From contig NZ_VIKA01000007.1 in the NCBI RefSeq assembly GCF_006704265.1, positions 1 to 51,506 of the forward strand: a DNA stretch of 51,506 nt. Reading direction: 5' to 3'. Positions 19,508 through 27,778 of this stretch are shown here, piece by piece; within the stretch, counting starts at the first letter, position 1, and each line of letters opens with the position of its first letter. The stretch comes from Elioraea sp. Yellowstone (GTDB taxonomy: Bacteria > Pseudomonadota > Alphaproteobacteria > Acetobacterales > Acetobacteraceae). The notes beneath the pieces are model-generated. The model was given only the letters and a program-made list of their open reading frames with translations. It had not been told where the DNA came from and did not search any database. The position numbers were made by a program, and so were the translations under genes.

Positions 19508-20047
19508 ATGCCGAAGGGCACACTGGCCGAGCTTCAGGCCATGGCGAAGGCCGACAAGGGCTTCACCGGCAAGCCCGAGATGCTCGAGTTCCACAAGGCC
19601 GCGAACCTGGCCAAGTGGAAGACGCGCACCACCCAGGTGGGCAACGGCCAGTGTCCGATCCTGCCGCAGGTTGCCTCCGGTGCGCCGAAGGTGAAGTTCT
19701 GGCGCAAGGGGCCGCTCGTGAAGGGCAACCTCGCCGTGCCCGAGGGCACGGTGATCGCAGCAGGCTGGAACGAGGCGGGCCGGTATCCCAACCGCAAGCA
19801 CGGCAACCATGCCGCGATCTACCTGCGCCAGACCGCGAAGGGGCTGGTGGTGCTGGACCAGTGGGGCGGCAAGGACATCGCCAAGCACGGCTTCGAGCGC
19901 ACCCTGCCGTTCGGGGCGCGCAAGGGCGACGACATCGTCAACGGCGGCGACTACTTCCACGTGGTCGTGACCGAACGGTTCATCACCGAGTTCGAGTACA
20001 TGATGATGGAGATCGGCCGCGCGCTTGCCGCCACGGCGGCGTTCTGA
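19508..20047 (+). CDS. BPSL0067 family protein (NlpC/P60-like fold predicted)
   Basis: A 179-residue protein resembling the BPSL0067 family. A small N-terminal helical part ends in TQVGNGQCPILPQV, where the cysteine after a GxGxC pattern is the likely nucleophile. HGNHAAIYLRQ supplies a histidine and VVLDQWG a polar third residue, the arrangement of papain-like NlpC/P60 or amidase effectors. No signal peptide is seen. If catalytic, it could act on an amide bond in peptidoglycan or a peptide; this is inference. A GGAGG site precedes the ATG. It is the last gene before the CRISPR array; nothing indicates it is part of the immune locus. Confidence 0.72.
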   Translation: MPKGTLAELQAMAKADKGFTGKPEMLEFHKAANLAKWKTRTTQVGNGQCPILPQVASGAPKVKFWRKGPLVKGNLAVPEGTVIAAGWNEAGRYPNRKHGNHAAIYLRQTAKGLVVLDQWGGKDIAKHGFERTLPFGARKGDDIVNGGDYFHVVVTERFITEFEYMMMEIGRALAATAAF

Positions 20048-20083: not shown

Positions 20084-20131
20084 CGTTCGATCCGCAGGGC
20101 CTCGCCACCGCGAGGTCCTGCGGATCGAACG
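20084..20131. repeat. Near-perfect 22-bp inverted repeat abutting the first CRISPR repeat
   Basis: Arms 20084-20105 and 20110-20131 are reverse complements except for one position that would be a G-U pair in RNA; the loop is CACC. Each arm contains CGTTCGATCCGCAGG or its complement, and the right arm ends on the first base of CRISPR repeat 1. There is no U-tract after it. It may terminate transcription from the BPSL0067 gene or antisense reads leaving the array, or form part of a leader. It is not related to the repeat sequence. Confidence 0.85.
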
Positions 20132-21620
20132 CTGCGGTTTGCGGCCGCACCGGGCATCGCTACACTGATGCCGACGGGATCGTGACGTTGTGGTTGCTGC
20201 GGTTTGCGGCCGCACCGGGCACCGCTACACTTCGCCCTCATAAATCGCTTCGTGGGTGAGCGCTGCGGTTTGCGGCCGCACCGGGCATCGCTACACTGGA
20301 CGGGTGGCGGCGCATCGGTCGCTGTGCGCTGCGGTTTGCGGCCGCACCGGGCATCGCTACACTGCCGCGCGGCGGCGCCGGGACGACAGCGAAGCTGCGG
20401 TTTGCGGCCGCACCGGGCATCGCTACACTCGAGACCGACGCACAGGGCAACCCGTCCAGGCTGCGGTTTGCGGCCGCACCGGGCATCGCTACACTCATGA
20501 GCGAGGCGCATCCCGTCGCACGCCAAGCTGCGGTTTGCGGCCGCACCGGGCATCGCTACACTGGACGGGTGGCGGCGCATCGGTCGCTGTGCGCTGCGGT
20601 TTGCGGCCGCACCGGGCATCGCTACACTGCTGGTTTCGTCGGGCGCCCCCACACCAGGGGCTGCGGTTTGCGGCCGCACCGGGCATCGCTACACTTGGTT
20701 GAGCGCACACGACGTCACGATCAAGGCTGCGGTTTGCGGCCGCACCGGGCATCGCTACACTACGCATAGGGATTGTCCCTATATAATGCCGGCTGCGGTT
20801 TGCGGCCGCACCGGGCATCGCTACACTCCTCGTCATAGCGCCCGGCATTGAGCTTCTGCTGCGGTTTGCGGCCGCACCGGGCATCGCTACACTGGCGCTG
20901 GCGGGCCGGCGCGTCGCCGATTTGCTGCGGTTTGCGGCCGCACCGGGCATCGCTACACTGCACGCCGAGTACGACCCTGCGGCCACCGAGCTGCGGTTTG
21001 CGGCCGCACCGGGCATCGCTACACTCCTCCGGCGTGATCTTGAACGTGCCATTCCGCTGCGGTTTGCGGCCGCACCGGGCATCGCTACACTCTGCGCTTC
21101 GTTCCACAACGGCACCATCTCGGCTGCGGTTTGCGGCCGCACCGGGCATCGCTACACTGAAACCGCCAAGAAGCTGACCGAGTTGTATGCTGCGGTTTGC
21201 GGCCGCACCGGGCATCGCTACACTGCGCTGGATCACCTCGGTCGTTGTCGCTGCGCTGCGGTTTGCGGCCGCACCGGGCATCGCTACACTCCGCGGCGCC
21301 TGCCACACTTCACCGGCGGCGCTGCGGTTTGCGGCCGCACCGGGCATCGCTACACTGTGAGTATGAACGTGCCCATGCGGCTGGTGGCTGCGGTTTGCGG
21401 CCGCACCGGGCATCGCTACACTCGAGTGGGAGAGCGTGCCTCAGCCGATGCTGCTGCGGTTTGCGGCCGCACCGGGCATCGCTACACTCGCTTGTTGCAC
21501 ATCCTTGTCGACACTAGCGCTGCGGTTTGCGGCCGCACCGGGCATCGCTACACTGCGGAAGCGCGCGACTTCGCTAGCGCCAGGGCTGCGGTTTGCGGCC
21601 GCACCGGGCATCGCTACACT
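20131..21620 (+). CRISPR. Type II-C CRISPR array, 23 repeats and 22 spacers
   Basis: Twenty-three 36-base repeats begin GCTGCGGTTTGCGGCCGC and end CACCGGGCATCGCTACACT on the plus strand. They start at 20131, 20196, 20262, 20328, 20394, 20460, 20527, 20593, 20660, 20726, 20792, 20858, 20924, 20990, 21056, 21123, 21189, 21255, 21321, 21387, 21453, 21519 and 21585. Spacers are 29 to 31 bases, mostly 30. All repeats are identical except the second, which has C for T at position 27. Spacers 3 (20298-20327) and 7 (20563-20592) are identical. The anti-repeat of the tracrRNA fixes the crRNA strand as plus, opposite to the cas genes. The array ends 48 bases from the cas2 stop. Confidence 0.99.
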
Positions 21621-21668: not shown

Positions 21669-22022
21669 CTAGAAAAACTCCAGCTGCGCCGGCGGAGTCT
21701 CCGGGGGTTTCCGCCGTTTTCCGGCGAACACCTGGATCCGCGCGAACTGCGCGTCCGTCACCGTCAGGAACCGCACCTCCCCCTCCGCCGGAACCCGCAG
21801 GCCCATCCGCCGGATATGCGCCGTGGCGCTGTCTAGGCTCGCGCAATGCCGGAAATACACGCTGAACTGCATCATCGCGAATCCGTCCGCCAGCAGATCC
21901 TTGCGGAAGCGAGCATAGGCGCGCCGGTGCGCCTTCGTCTCCACCGGCAGGTCGAACATCGCGAACACCCACACGGTGCGCCAGGCGATTGGGTCAAGAA
22001 GGGGCGGGCGCGGCGCCCTCAT
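21669..22022 (-). CDS. cas2: CRISPR-associated endonuclease Cas2
   Basis: Structural and nuclease partner of Cas1 in spacer integration. The 117-residue protein has the ferredoxin-like start VWVFAMFDLPVETK, with the conserved aspartate Asp24 after the first strand, and the helix AHRRAYARFRKDLLADGFAMMQFSVYFRHC typical of type II Cas2. The end RKPPETPPAQLEFF is an extended tail. ATG at 22022 lies inside the 3' end of cas1, a 29-base overlap; the frame is open further up but has no homology there. It is the last cas gene; no csn2 or cas4 follows, which defines the locus as subtype II-C. Confidence 0.96.
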   Translation of the reverse strand: MRAPRPPLLDPIAWRTVWVFAMFDLPVETKAHRRAYARFRKDLLADGFAMMQFSVYFRHCASLDSATAHIRRMGLRVPAEGEVRFLTVTDAQFARIQVFAGKRRKPPETPPAQLEFF

Positions 22023-22935
22023 CCGGCTCCTCCGCTGGCTCGGGCAGGCCCGTCGGGTCCTCGGGCAGCCGCAGCAGCATCCGCCTTCCCCCGAAGCTTG
22101 CCGCCAGCGACGCGGCAGCCCGGTGCAGCGCAAGCCCGAGCGGCATCGCCTGCCCGTCCATCCCCACCGCGATGTTCAGCACGCCGAGCAGATGCGCCTT
22201 GCGCGTCCTGTCAAGCTCGCCCTCGGCCAGCCCGGCCCGCGCCATCTCCCACACCACCCCGTCGACGAACGGACGGAACGGCTCCATCAGGTCGGAGGCG
22301 AGCGCGAAGGCATCGCCGCGGTTGGCGTGGAACAGGCCCACGCCGGCCAGCAGCCCGGCGCCGACGACGGCCCGCGCGGTCGCCGCGCGCAGCACCGCAT
22401 AGCCGTAGTTCAGCAGCGGGTTCGGCGCCGCGCCGGAGCGGTCGCGCCGGAACGCCGGGCCGAGCAGCCGCGGCCAGTAGCGCTGCGCGCCCTGCGCCTC
22501 CAGGTTCTCGGGGTCGCCCGAGCGCACGCGCGCGGCCATCGCATCGAGCCCCGCGTCCTGCCCGGTGGCGCGGCGCAGCAGGTCGGCCTGCCGGCGCAGC
22601 TTGCAGGCGACGATCGCCTGCCACAGCCGCTTGGCGAGCGGGCGCGGGCAGGCGAGCTGCGCGCGCTGCCGCTCGCCGGCAAGCGCGTTGGCGGCATAGG
22701 GCAGCAGCACGCCCACCGGCATGTGATCGGGGCCGCACAGGATCGTCGCGACCTTCGCCTCGGCGAGTGCCGCGAGCAGCGCGTGGGTGTAGGTGACCTG
22801 GGGGTTGTCCACGATCAGCAGGGCGAGGTCCTCGACCGGCACGGTGGGCGCACTGCCGTCCTCGCGCGCCACCACGAGCTGGCGGTGGCGCAGGCTGAGC
22901 CGCGCGGGAGACGAGACCTCCACCGTGCGCGTCAT
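21994..22935 (-). CDS. cas1: CRISPR-associated integrase Cas1 (type II)
   Basis: Integrase that inserts new spacers with Cas2. The 313-residue protein has the N-terminal beta domain with EDLALLIVDNPQVTYTHALLAALAEA and the alpha domain with the metal residues Glu146 (DPENLEAQGAQRYWPRLLG), His203 (GVGLFHANRGDAF) and Glu218 (LASDLMEPFRPFVDGVVW). NPLLNYGYAVLRA is the characteristic Cas1 helix. The ATG at 22935 overlaps the cas9 stop as ATGA. A Pro/Glu/Ala-rich tail (residues 288 onward) overlaps the cas2 start. All catalytic residues are present, so adaptation should be possible. Confidence 0.98.
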   Translation of the reverse strand: MTRTVEVSSPARLSLRHRQLVVAREDGSAPTVPVEDLALLIVDNPQVTYTHALLAALAEAKVATILCGPDHMPVGVLLPYAANALAGERQRAQLACPRPLAKRLWQAIVACKLRRQADLLRRATGQDAGLDAMAARVRSGDPENLEAQGAQRYWPRLLGPAFRRDRSGAAPNPLLNYGYAVLRAATARAVVGAGLLAGVGLFHANRGDAFALASDLMEPFRPFVDGVVWEMARAGLAEGELDRTRKAHLLGVLNIAVGMDGQAMPLGLALHRAAASLAASFGGRRMLLRLPEDPTGLPEPAEEPDEGAAPAPS

Positions 22936-25900
22936 CGCGCCGGCCTCCAGCGGCCGATCGGATCGACGGAGATCTTCCGCCAGCCGTCGTTGACACAACT
23001 CGGGCCGAGCGAGACTTCAGGCTTAGGCTCGTTCGCCGAATGAAGTGGCTTGTAAAAGATGCGCCCTGCCGCATTGACCTTTCGAACGAGCGCGAATTGC
23101 CGGAGCCCATCATTCTCACGACAGAGCACGTCGCGCGGTCGCAGCGCCATCACCAGCCGTCCGCCTTCCGGGTGCTCGGGCCGCACGGCGGGTTCGCCCC
23201 GTTGCACGCGCACCAGCGCTTCACGCTTCGTCGCGACGAGGTATCGAATGGTCTCGCCGTCGCGGTAGATCGCGATGTGGTGGTTCGTGCCCGGCCCGAG
23301 CTCGGCATGGATGTTCTTCGTGGCGTGCACGCGCATCACGCCCTCCTTCCGCCGCATGTGCAGCCGCACCCGTCGAATCACCGGTCCGCGCTCCGCCGTG
23401 ATGCCGAACTTTGCCCATTTTCTGCGCACCCTATCCGTCAAAGGCAGTCGGATTTCCTGCGCAAGCAGTGCCTTGAGCCGCCGCTGCGCCGTGCCATCTG
23501 CTGCCTTGCCGCGCTTCTTCCGCTCCAAGACGAGCCCGTTGGCTGCCAGATGATCGAGGATCGCCTGCCGCACTCCCGCGTCGGCGATCCAGGCGTCTCC
23601 GCCGTCCTCGGGCGTGCTCAGGATCTCCGAAGCACTGAGATCCGCCACCGCCTTGCGCTTGACGTAGATCGCCGAGCCGGCGGCCTCGCGCTGCCCCGTG
23701 TCGCCGAGCCGCGTCTCCTCGTGCAGCGGTCCCGACAGCTTCGCCTGCACGCGATGGCTGACCAGGATCGCCTCCACCGCCGTCTTGGCGTCCTCGCGGA
23801 AGCCGGGCCAGGGCAGGTGGAAGCCGGGCGGGCGCGGGCCCGTCTCACGGCGCTGCCACCAGCGCGACAGTTCCGCCACCGTGCGCGGGGTGGTCAGCGC
23901 CACCGCCAGCGCGTCAACCGCGTGGTGGCGCAGATCCTCGCGCACCTTCAGACCGTCGTCGTCGCCAAGATCCAGCAGCTTGCCGAGGCCGATCCCCCAC
24001 GCACGGCGCAGCAGCGCCGTCGCCCGTCCCGGCACCGGCTGCACCGCATCCAGCCCCGCCTGCCCGCCGCCGAACAGCAGCCCGAGATAGGGGCGCGCGG
24101 CGCGGGCGATGAACGCCGTGTCCACCAGTTGGCGGTTCGTGAAGCCCGCCTCGTCGGTCTCCGGGTCCTCCAGCCTCGCCTTCAGGCAGCGCCGCAGCTT
24201 CGCCTCCGGCCAGCCGGCGTTTTTCATCTGCGGCCAGACGATCGTCGTCAGATGGGTCCAGCGGTCGGCGTCGCCCGACAGCCACTCGAACGGCGTGCGC
24301 CGCCCCTTCGCCGCGTTCTCGCGGGCGAAGCACAGCACCTTGTTCGCCTGCGAATCGTCGAAGCTGCGGCTGACGGGGAAGATGTGGTCGATCTGCGTCG
24401 CCGTCGGATCGAGCGCTTCGGTGCAACTGATCGTCTTGCCGGGGTGCGAATAGGGGCAGCGCCCGCCCTGTTCCTTGCAGAGCAGCCAGCGCAACACGTT
24501 CTCCTCGCCCTCCGGCCCCTCCGCCGGCTTGCCGAGTTCCGCCACCTTCTTGCGTGCCTCGTCGCGCGCCCGCTCGCGCTCGCGCTGGCGCTTGTCGGTC
24601 TCGCGCCGCTCCTCGGCCGACTGCTTGAGATCGCGTGCGAACTCCAGCCGGATCACGTCGGGCCGGCCGTGCGCGCGCAGGAGCGTGTTCACCACCTTGC
24701 GCAGCTCGCTGAGCGTGCGCAGCACGGTCGGGTTGCGGATGCCGGCGAGCAATGCCGCCATGCGCTCGCGCACCCAGGCGTCCTTGACCTTGTCCAGCTC
24801 CGACAGGTTCGGCACCGGCAGCCGGGCAAGCGGCGCACCGCTGTCGCGGTGGGCGCCATAGACCCGTTCCACGGCCGTCATGTACGGCACGCCCGACTCC
24901 AGCAGCGGCAGCAGCGTGCGCATCGCCGCGAGGCTGTGGCGTGCCGCGCCGTCCGGCAGGTCGAGACGCGACAGCGCCTCCGCCGCCTGCGGCGGCAGCC
25001 CCCACTCGGTGCGCGCGCGCTCGGCCAGGGCGGCGCGCTCGGCCGCGATCCCAACGTGATCGTGGATTTCGAGGATCGCGCCGCCCTTCGTCGGCCGATA
25101 CTCGATCCGGTGCCAGGTGCGGCCGATCTCGGCACGGATCGTCTCGCGCATCGCCTCCGGCAGCGCATCCCAGGCCGCGCCCAAGGCGGTCCTGAGCGCG
25201 GCCTCGGTCGCATTGCCGCGGATCGTCGCCTTCTCGCCGCGCTCGTGCGTGAAGCGGTCGCTCCGCCCGATCCCGATCGCCGCGCGCAGGCCCGCCCAGG
25301 TGGGGCGGCGCTCGGTCTCGAGATACGCGATCGCCATGGCCCGCTCGGCCGGATCGAGCTCGCGCTGGTTGCCGCGCTCCAGCCGGAGCGCGTTGACGAG
25401 CTGGAGCATCTCGAAGCGCTGCGTCAGCCACTCGGCCTTCAGCGCCCGAGGTTCGCCGGGTTCGAGATCGTCCGTGCCGACGGTGCGGGCGCGAAAGAAG
25501 GTCGGCCGCTGGGCCAGCGCGACCGTCTCGATCCGTGCCTTCAGGTCAGGCGTGAGCAGCGTCGGATGGTGTTTCGCCTGCTCGGCCCACAGCGCCTCGA
25601 ACTCCTCGCGCACCATCGGGCGCGTCTGGCCGACGGCGCGCCGACGTGGCGTGTCCCAGAGCGCCGGTGTGGTCCCGTCGGGCTTCAGATGATCGTCCGA
25701 TTGCAAGTAGATCGCGAGCTTCCGCCCCGCCATCCGCGCCGCCAACGCCTCGCCGCGCGCCCGCTCCTCTGCCTCCTCGCGCGCTCGCTCGTCGGCCGGT
25801 TCGGGCGGAGAAGCCAACGCCCTGCCGCGCCGGCGCCGCCCGCGCGGGGCCTCCTCGTCGTCTACCTCGGCGGTCGCGGGGGCTGGCTCGACCGGGCCGA

Positions 25901-26315
25901 CCTTGCGGCTGCCCTGGAAGCCGCGGCGCTTGAGGAGATGGAAGATCGCCCACCCGGCTTCTTCAGCCGAAAGGGCACCCTCCAAGCCGCGGGCACGGAG
26001 TGCATACGGGTCCTGCCCCGTCGGCGGCTGCGCACGCTCGTCAGGCAGCAGCCCTGCCTCCGCGAGCAGGGCGCGCAGGTGCACACGCCGCCAACGGCGG
26101 CGCCGCACCTGTCGACGCATCAGCCGCTTCTGCCGACGCCCTGCGTTGAGCGGGGCGCCTGGCCCCTGCGTGTCGATCTCGCGCGTTTCGGGAAACACGC
26201 GCACGCCGAGCCGGACGATCTCGCCGTTTCCCTCAGGCGTGCTCCACCCGTCCCAGCGGATCACGGCGAACCCGACCGAGGTCACGCCGAGATCGAAGCC
26301 CCAGATCGTTTGCAT
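22932..26315 (-). CDS. cas9: CRISPR-associated endonuclease Cas9 (type II-C)
   Basis: RNA-guided double-strand DNA endonuclease of 1127 residues. RuvC-I IWGFDLGVTSVGFAVIRWDG carries Asp8. The arginine-rich bridge helix spans about residues 57-80 (AGRRQKRLMRRQVRRRRWRR). A recognition lobe follows, with a charged low-complexity insert at about 143-196. RuvC-II VIRLEFARDL carries Glu558. HNH (about 610-690) has QIDHIFPVSRSFDDSQANKV with His644 and Asn658 and a CPYSHPGKTISC segment. RuvC-III DLRHHAVDALAVAL has His798 and Asp801. Residues from about 830 form the PAM-interacting end. All nuclease residues are intact. ATG at 26315 has an AAGGGGG site. An ATG at 26435 is rejected because it lies in the tracrRNA gene. 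It heads cas9-cas1-cas2. Confidence 0.99.
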   Translation of the reverse strand: MQTIWGFDLGVTSVGFAVIRWDGWSTPEGNGEIVRLGVRVFPETREIDTQGPGAPLNAGRRQKRLMRRQVRRRRWRRVHLRALLAEAGLLPDERAQPPTGQDPYALRARGLEGALSAEEAGWAIFHLLKRRGFQGSRKVGPVEPAPATAEVDDEEAPRGRRRRGRALASPPEPADERAREEAEERARGEALAARMAGRKLAIYLQSDDHLKPDGTTPALWDTPRRRAVGQTRPMVREEFEALWAEQAKHHPTLLTPDLKARIETVALAQRPTFFRARTVGTDDLEPGEPRALKAEWLTQRFEMLQLVNALRLERGNQRELDPAERAMAIAYLETERRPTWAGLRAAIGIGRSDRFTHERGEKATIRGNATEAALRTALGAAWDALPEAMRETIRAEIGRTWHRIEYRPTKGGAILEIHDHVGIAAERAALAERARTEWGLPPQAAEALSRLDLPDGAARHSLAAMRTLLPLLESGVPYMTAVERVYGAHRDSGAPLARLPVPNLSELDKVKDAWVRERMAALLAGIRNPTVLRTLSELRKVVNTLLRAHGRPDVIRLEFARDLKQSAEERRETDKRQRERERARDEARKKVAELGKPAEGPEGEENVLRWLLCKEQGGRCPYSHPGKTISCTEALDPTATQIDHIFPVSRSFDDSQANKVLCFARENAAKGRRTPFEWLSGDADRWTHLTTIVWPQMKNAGWPEAKLRRCLKARLEDPETDEAGFTNRQLVDTAFIARAARPYLGLLFGGGQAGLDAVQPVPGRATALLRRAWGIGLGKLLDLGDDDGLKVREDLRHHAVDALAVALTTPRTVAELSRWWQRRETGPRPPGFHLPWPGFREDAKTAVEAILVSHRVQAKLSGPLHEETRLGDTGQREAAGSAIYVKRKAVADLSASEILSTPEDGGDAWIADAGVRQAILDHLAANGLVLERKKRGKAADGTAQRRLKALLAQEIRLPLTDRVRRKWAKFGITAERGPVIRRVRLHMRRKEGVMRVHATKNIHAELGPGTNHHIAIYRDGETIRYLVATKREALVRVQRGEPAVRPEHPEGGRLVMALRPRDVLCRENDGLRQFALVRKVNAAGRIFYKPLHSANEPKPEVSLGPSCVNDGWRKISVDPIGRWRPAR

Positions 26316-26327
26316 GACGATGCCCCC

Positions 26328-26362
26328 TTGGATGAATGCAACCAAGGAGGTAGTGTAACACT
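26328..26362 (+). promoter_or_regulatory. Predicted tracrRNA promoter within the divergent cas9/tracrRNA control region
   Basis: On the plus strand TTGGAT (26328-26333) and TAGTGT (26351-26356) are separated by 17 bases, placing the predicted start of transcription at about 26363, exactly where the anti-repeat begins. An 11-base dyad AGTGTAACACT (26352-26362) overlaps the -10. The cas9 promoter must fire leftward from this dyad or from inside the tracrRNA gene, since only 47 bases separate the cas9 ATG from the tracrRNA start. On that strand the dyad reads TACACT as a possible -10. Confidence 0.55.
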
Positions 26363-26481
26363 CGTGTAGCGATGCCTGGTGTGGCTGCTTGCCGCAGGCA
26401 AAACCTATTCGTCCACACAGGTGCGGGCTGGGCATCCCGCGGACGAAGCGCCCCCTGACCCCCGCCTCGCGCGGGGGTCTT
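26363..26481 (+). ncRNA. tracrRNA
   Basis: Trans-activating RNA that pairs with crRNA repeats and binds Cas9. Bases 26364-26397 pair with positions 2-35 counted from the 3' end of the repeat: 25 consecutive pairs including three G-U, an internal loop of three mismatches (26389-26391), then six pairs. Next comes a long hairpin: outer stem TTCGTCC (26408-26414) with GGACGAA (26441-26447), inner stem GCGGG/CCCGC (26423-26427, 26436-26440). Last is a terminator, GACCCCCGC/GCGGGGGTC (26457-26465, 26471-26479), followed by TT. The core GTGCGGGCTGGGCATCCC resembles, from memory, that of Parvibaculum lavamentivorans tracrRNA. It is divergent from cas9 and on the same strand as the array. Confidence 0.93.
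26457..26481 (+). terminator. Intrinsic terminator of tracrRNA
   Basis: A perfect 9-bp GC-rich stem GACCCCCGC/GCGGGGGTC with loop CTCGC is followed by TT on the plus strand. The short U-tract is common in very GC-rich genomes. It sits at the expected 3' end of tracrRNA, about 65 bases before the end of the convergent argG gene. Confidence 0.75.
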
Positions 26482-26545
26482 GCACTCTCAGGGCAAGCCC
26501 CGCTGGGCTAGCGTGCCCCGCGAGGGATGGTCCTGGCGGGCGGGG

Positions 26546-27778
<1,233 letters not shown>

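Follow-up and report, generated by a model that had tools for sequence, protein, structure and literature searches.

The CRISPR (clustered regularly interspaced short palindromic repeats)-Cas9 locus of Elioraea sp. Yellowstone raises the question of which transcript would serve its Cas9 as the trans-activating CRISPR RNA (tracrRNA), and from which strand its CRISPR RNAs (crRNAs) would be read. The window, by which we mean the whole stretch of DNA analysed here, comprises 51,506 nucleotides (nt) of one contig (NZ_VIKA01000007.1) of a 3.82-Mb assembly in 358 contigs. Between argG and cas9, an earlier note made from the letters of the window had placed an unannotated tracrRNA gene on the + strand, divergent from cas9. 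Judging from the sequence, we consider that positions 26363-26481 of this strand almost certainly encode the tracrRNA of a type II-C CRISPR-Cas9 locus (Table 1); the assignment agrees with the location and build of the element, with its single copy in the genome, and with the way it co-varies with the repeat among relatives. A tracrRNA at this place is an ordinary part of a bacterial CRISPR locus and an already known kind of RNA.

The anti-repeat carries most of the argument. When the array repeat was co-folded with 26363-26481, 32 of the 36 repeat positions were paired, with an energy of -69.9 kcal/mol. The co-fold reproduced the pairing of 26364-26397 with the repeat that the earlier note had described, including its 25 consecutive pairs; the three-base internal loop and six pairs given there for the remainder were replaced by a 2x2 loop and seven pairs, because one G-U pair closes the loop. 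At the next best ungapped site in the window outside the array, 28 of 36 positions paired and no run exceeded 9; among the sites listed elsewhere in the window the longest run was 15 (26/36), as against 25 (32/36) at the candidate. In the whole assembly, a degenerate 26-base pattern taken from the upper anti-repeat, with three mismatches at most, matched only the 23 array copies and the candidate; the better anti-repeat elsewhere in the genome that the earlier note had named as fatal to its claim was not found outside the array with this pattern. A similar degenerate pattern hit the same 24 places in the window, where none was expected from 100 shuffles. The distance from the anti-repeat to the cas9 start codon is 47 nt, and the two are divergently oriented.

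Table 1. Predicted features of the CRISPR-Cas9 locus, in window coordinates
Feature	Position	Strand	Remarks
tracrRNA gene, predicted transcript	26363-26481	+	anti-repeat, two-part hairpin and terminal hairpin; ends approximate
Anti-repeat, upper stem	26364-26388	+	25 consecutive pairs with repeat positions 11-35, three of them G-U
2x2 internal loop of the repeat:anti-repeat duplex	26389-26390	+	from the co-fold
Anti-repeat, lower stem	26391-26397	+	7 pairs with repeat positions 2-8
Two-part nexus-like hairpin	26408-26447	+	7-bp outer stem, 8-nt bulge, 5-bp inner stem, 8-nt loop
Terminal hairpin, terminator-like	26457-26479	+	9-bp stem 26457-26465/26471-26479; same place in relatives; short T tract
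Tentative promoter region	26328-26356	+	TTGGAT-17-TAGTGT; only 6/12 consensus positions; by analogy with relatives
cas9	22932-26315	-	1127 amino acids; TIGR01865 at 534.6 bits; open reading frame without inner stop
cas1 open reading frame	21994-22998	-	TIGR03639 cas1_NMENI at 232.7 bits, PF01867, Cas1_II; start uncertain
cas2 open reading frame	21669-22133	-	TIGR01573, PF09827, Cas2_II
CRISPR array	20131-21620	+ (predicted crRNA strand)	23 repeats of 36 nt; 22 spacers, 21 different
Long hairpin	20085-20130	+	21-bp stem; abuts the first CRISPR repeat exactly

For comparison we collected 17 loci, 16 from a Cas9-profile scan of named genomes and one from a scan of viral contigs. Nine of these contain a 36-nt array and represent eight species, L039 and L055 sharing a repeat and being counted as one; L041, L046, L047-L050, L052 and L054 have no 36-nt array in the locus and were not counted (the array of L041 was found on another contig, and L046 has only 24-nt repeats). 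Each of the nine carries an anti-repeat 42-139 nt upstream of where the cas9 match begins; in eight of them it pairs better when read divergently from cas9 than in the other direction, and in L051 the two readings are equal. Cross-folding of 11 anti-repeats with 11 repeats gave the own repeat the best or tied-best energy in 10 of the 11 species. This bears on a different explanation, namely that 26363-26481 is a decayed or displaced CRISPR repeat in reverse orientation, a functionless remnant of the array: its first 25 bases are nearly the reverse complement of the repeat, and decay does occur in the group, where G201 has a broken cas9 and a tracrRNA remnant. We regard this as very unlikely, since such pairing with the own repeat is kept from species to species, relatives carry the hairpins in the corresponding position, some of their base changes being paired, and cas9 is intact in the window.

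Further occurrences were sought with the RNA itself. The 3' part of the tracrRNA matched 8 of 397 genomes, and a covariance model built from seven sequences matched 20 of 395 and 21 of 385 genomes at E values up to 0.001; the match of model R1 at 26386-26487 holds by construction, the model having been built partly from the window sequence. Seven further model matches were read, of which those in G299, G513, G848 and G419 stand beside cas9 and those in G236 (C180), G714 and G700 do not; many of the weak matches are probably due to chance. A tracrRNA search of plasmids gave no match.

As to the strand, the earlier note had held that the tracrRNA also settles the direction of the crRNAs, and the + strand is indeed supported by the hairpins, the G-U pairs and the end of the repeat. 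The downstream hairpins place the tracrRNA on the + strand, and the crRNA would belong to the same strand because each of the three G-U pairs would be an A-C mismatch on the opposite strands. The + strand repeat ends in a -10-like box, TACACT in the window and TATAAT in the relative G236, which supports + strand crRNAs because such an end is expected if II-C repeats carry their own promoters; a passage of PMC12080349 describes II-C systems of this kind, with repeats likewise ending in a -10-like box.

The following sequence of events is proposed. The RNA would be transcribed from about the start of the anti-repeat and would anneal, through 32 pairs, to the repeat in each + strand crRNA transcript. 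The resulting long duplex could be trimmed by RNase III, whose gene is present in the genome (PMC8224270 reports that II-C interference in Neisseria can do without RNase III). Cas9, whose gene starts 47 nt away on the opposite strand, would bind the lower stem, the internal loop and the nexus-like hairpin, and the outcome would be a crRNA-guided DNA nuclease. The place directly upstream of cas9 would also suit a regulatory RNA of the small CRISPR/Cas-associated RNA (scaRNA) or long-tracrRNA type, one repressing cas9 or host genes besides or instead of acting as a tracrRNA; PMC13431127 describes small regulatory RNAs associated with type II loci. Such a role appears unlikely, as the 5' part can pair with the array repeat over nearly its full length, and in the fold of the lone strand we saw no extended stretch resembling the repeat and paired to the anti-repeat, the arrangement of natural single guides, no dedicated search for one having been made.

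Read on the - strand, the same DNA could be just the beginning, coding or leader, of a longer cas9, whose open reading frame is free of stops up to an ATG at 26435. We give this hardly any credence, because homologous Cas9 proteins align from the residue at 26315 (WGFDLG or similar), a purine-rich putative ribosome-binding site lies just upstream of the 26315 start, and the pattern conserved further upstream is that of pairing with the repeat. A repeat-derived - strand promoter for cas9 was considered by eye and is not claimed.

Downstream of the anti-repeat of the predicted tracrRNA, the fold of the window sequence gave both parts of the hairpin that the earlier note had drawn (TTCGTCC/GGACGAA enclosing GCGGG/CCCGC), with the outer stem at 26408-26414/26441-26447 and the inner stem at 26423-26427/26436-26440. 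When this segment was folded alone in seven species, the outer stem formed in all seven, with 4-6 pairs, and the inner stem as drawn in four; in an Elioraea metagenome-assembled genome (MAG), G236 and L044 the segment folded otherwise. In a hand alignment of the seven species, with the stem letters set by eye, changes on both sides that kept the pairing were seen in the outer stem at the third pair (L044), the fourth (G250) and the fifth (Elioraea MAG and G250). The 9-bp terminator of the earlier note was recovered as a hairpin in the window fold and at the same place in relatives, while as a terminator it failed the scan described below; its stem is followed by only two T before GC in the window, for which reason the 3' end near 26481 is one that we infer, and by more T residues in L044. 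We also rejected a pseudoknot joining ACCT (about 26403) to AGGT (about 26420), because its first half is missing in relatives.

The start of the transcript was approached through relatives. Promoter-like pairs with 8-10 of 12 consensus positions end 3-6 nt before the anti-repeat in six of nine species, among them E. thermophila, the Elioraea MAG and G236, whose anti-repeats are split (see below); G848 has an equally good pair elsewhere too. Such pairs stand 3-7 nt before a given point at 0.1% of the positions of the window and at 0.5-0.9% in the loci of five relatives.

Several results weigh against the assignment of a tracrRNA gene or against parts of it. A simple scan of 26200-26700 found neither a sigma-70 promoter nor a T-rich terminator; the window, Rubritepida and L044 stayed below the 8/12 threshold for the promoter-like pair, and the window failed in a second scan too. 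In the full co-folds the outer stem formed in only three of the seven species (window, Elioraea MAG and G236) and the inner stem, as drawn, in just one, the window; the outer stem is broken at its sixth pair in four of the seven species and at its seventh in two. A degenerate repeat at the end of the array outscores the anti-repeat in L039/L055, and the anti-repeat of Rubritepida ranks its own repeat only fifth of eleven. Moreover, no phage target was found for the three of the 21 different spacers that were searched: one had no match, and the best match of the others covered 21 of 30 bases exactly, with an E value of 0.01. Taken with the folds of the segment alone, a hairpin after the anti-repeat is well supported as a prediction; the most doubtful element of the predicted anatomy is its inner part, where an alternative pairing of these conserved bases may compete.

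The predicted RNA resembles the tracrRNAs of known type II-C systems in its general plan. In the loci of Neisseria and Campylobacter, whose general II-C anatomy is used here for comparison, an anti-repeat is likewise followed by hairpins, Cas9 has about 1100 amino acids, and cas1 and cas2 stand alongside. It differs from the known II-C tracrRNAs in that Rfam, among whose families we take a tracrRNA family to be, gave no tracrRNA match in the window at the gathering score, nor at 26300-26560 at E values up to 10. With the candidate, the predicted guide RNA set of a little-studied Elioraea Cas9 of 1127 amino acids would be complete, crRNA, tracrRNA and strand being defined; one species of the genus is described as moderately thermophilic (PMC8781829).

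The closest comparison is with Rubritepida flocculans, Elioraea thermophila, the Elioraea MAG and G236, which share with the window a divergent tracrRNA, similar repeats (that of G236 differing at several bases) and a very similar 3' part, and whose Cas9 proteins are 59-80% identical to that of the window in the best segment. The anti-repeat of the window is contiguous, whereas in these four of the 13 species of our Cas9 tree, including the closest relative of the window, it is split by an insertion of 23 (Rubritepida), 47 (E. thermophila), 46 (Elioraea MAG) or 50 nt (G236), the limits being set by eye. The junction falls between repeat positions 12/13, 13/14, 12/13 and 8/9, respectively. The insertions look largely dissimilar in sequence, yet all are predicted to fold into hairpins, two of them in G236; in the same order, the energy z-scores of the folds were -1.8, -1.6, -3.8 and -4.0 and the p values 0.049, 0.072, 0.002 and 0.002 (1000 shuffles each), the first two being only marginal. 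In the co-folds 31, 32, 32 and 34 repeat bases were paired in these species, as compared with 32 in the window and 29 in G250. The split halves paired with their own repeat better than shuffles did, with p values of 0.001 for the 5' halves and 0.007-0.042 for the 3' halves.

The Cas9 tree was made from 13 hand-chosen rows, with L042, L045, L051 and the remaining Cas9 matches left out; G299 and G419, whose retrieved sequences include no array, were classed as contiguous on sequence alone. The window is sister to Rubritepida (support 100/99) and nested inside the split group, and the fork joining G236 has a support of 89/92. The split and contiguous states need at least two changes on this tree (2-3 in bootstrap trees). 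One gain of the insertion and one loss on the branch of the window would be the simplest account; three separate gains are an alternative that is not the simplest. On balance we lean slightly towards the view that the dual guide RNA occurs in a branched form in the Cas9 clade of the window, a form in which a self-folding hairpin domain interrupts the anti-repeat, and that the contiguity of the window is a secondary loss. The insertion would lie 2-3 pairs above the internal loop (in G236, above its would-be place), and crRNA and tracrRNA would form a three- or four-way junction with repeat pairing about as in the contiguous relatives.

Among the matches listed in a search of openly licensed papers, we recognised nothing on a split, discontinuous, interrupted or bipartite tracrRNA anti-repeat or on an insertion in one, and for a three-way junction only a paper on IscB. 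The omega-RNA of IscB, as described in part of PMC9640706, has a branched junction in a guide scaffold RNA like that predicted for the split relatives; this is an analogy only, as the junction predicted here lies inside the repeat:anti-repeat duplex of two RNAs. A split form could mislead finders that look for one continuous anti-repeat. Engineers insert aptamers in the upper stem of guide RNAs, and the split form, if it is made as one transcript, would be a natural counterpart of these and would show where the Cas9 scaffold tolerates a domain.

Parts of the tracrRNA region occur more than once in two relatives. In G236, a segment of about 600 bp spanning the tracrRNA terminator and the flank downstream of it has two copies with 85% identity (L069 1-601 and L130 7468-8083); the L130 copy has no recognisable part of the tracrRNA beyond its terminator end. 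In G250, 185 bp with the last part of the tracrRNA and its flank are 99% identical between L070 5339-5522 and L071 8079-8262; both lie near contig ends, and the second copy may be a truncated second tracrRNA or the edge of a duplicated locus. L055, a contig of 11301 bases from IMG/VR that is classed as viral, has a cas9 locus that equals that of Rubritepida (L039) both in its repeat and in its 80% match to the window Cas9, and is probably a chromosomal fragment.

Around the candidate, cas9, cas1 and cas2 are mutually adjacent and are followed by the array, the flanks being argG and, past the array, a BPSL0067-family gene (19508-20047, NF033857 at 78 bits, with no Pfam or PADLOC match). The combination of cas9 with type II cas1 and cas2 that marks II-C is present according to the Cas9, cas1_NMENI/Cas1_II and Cas2_II models, and neither csn2 nor cas4 was found among the locus neighbours tested; six array-side open reading frames had no PADLOC match. 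The Cas9 residues D8, E558, H644, N667, H798 and D801, presumably the catalytic positions, are invariant in alignments with homologues. Among solved Cas9 chains, 9ar4, 8jtj and 8uzb come closest in sequence, their best stretches spanning some 600 residues. The true start of cas2 is probably inside the open reading frame, since the profile matches begin at about residue 50.

The only variant repeat of the array is the second copy (20196), with one base changed, the first repeat being unchanged. An identical 30-nt spacer occurs twice, as the third (20298-20327) and the seventh (20563-20592). If the array grows in the manner of other II-C systems, which acquire spacers at the last repeat according to a passage of PMC12080349, its old end would be the side of the first repeat; the same source states that 60% of first, extra II-C repeats are mutated and describes hairpins before arrays. 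The hairpin at 20085-20130 may insulate the array from outside transcription.

Two other genomes of the genus differ in their Cas9. G115 (L022) has only a distant Cas9 with 34% identity to that of the window; therefore the genus holds at least two Cas9 lineages. G201 has a decaying locus at L072 8253-9864, with cas9 pieces that contain stops and in which the first 114 residues were not found, a tracrRNA remnant beside the broken cas9, and one leftover repeat.
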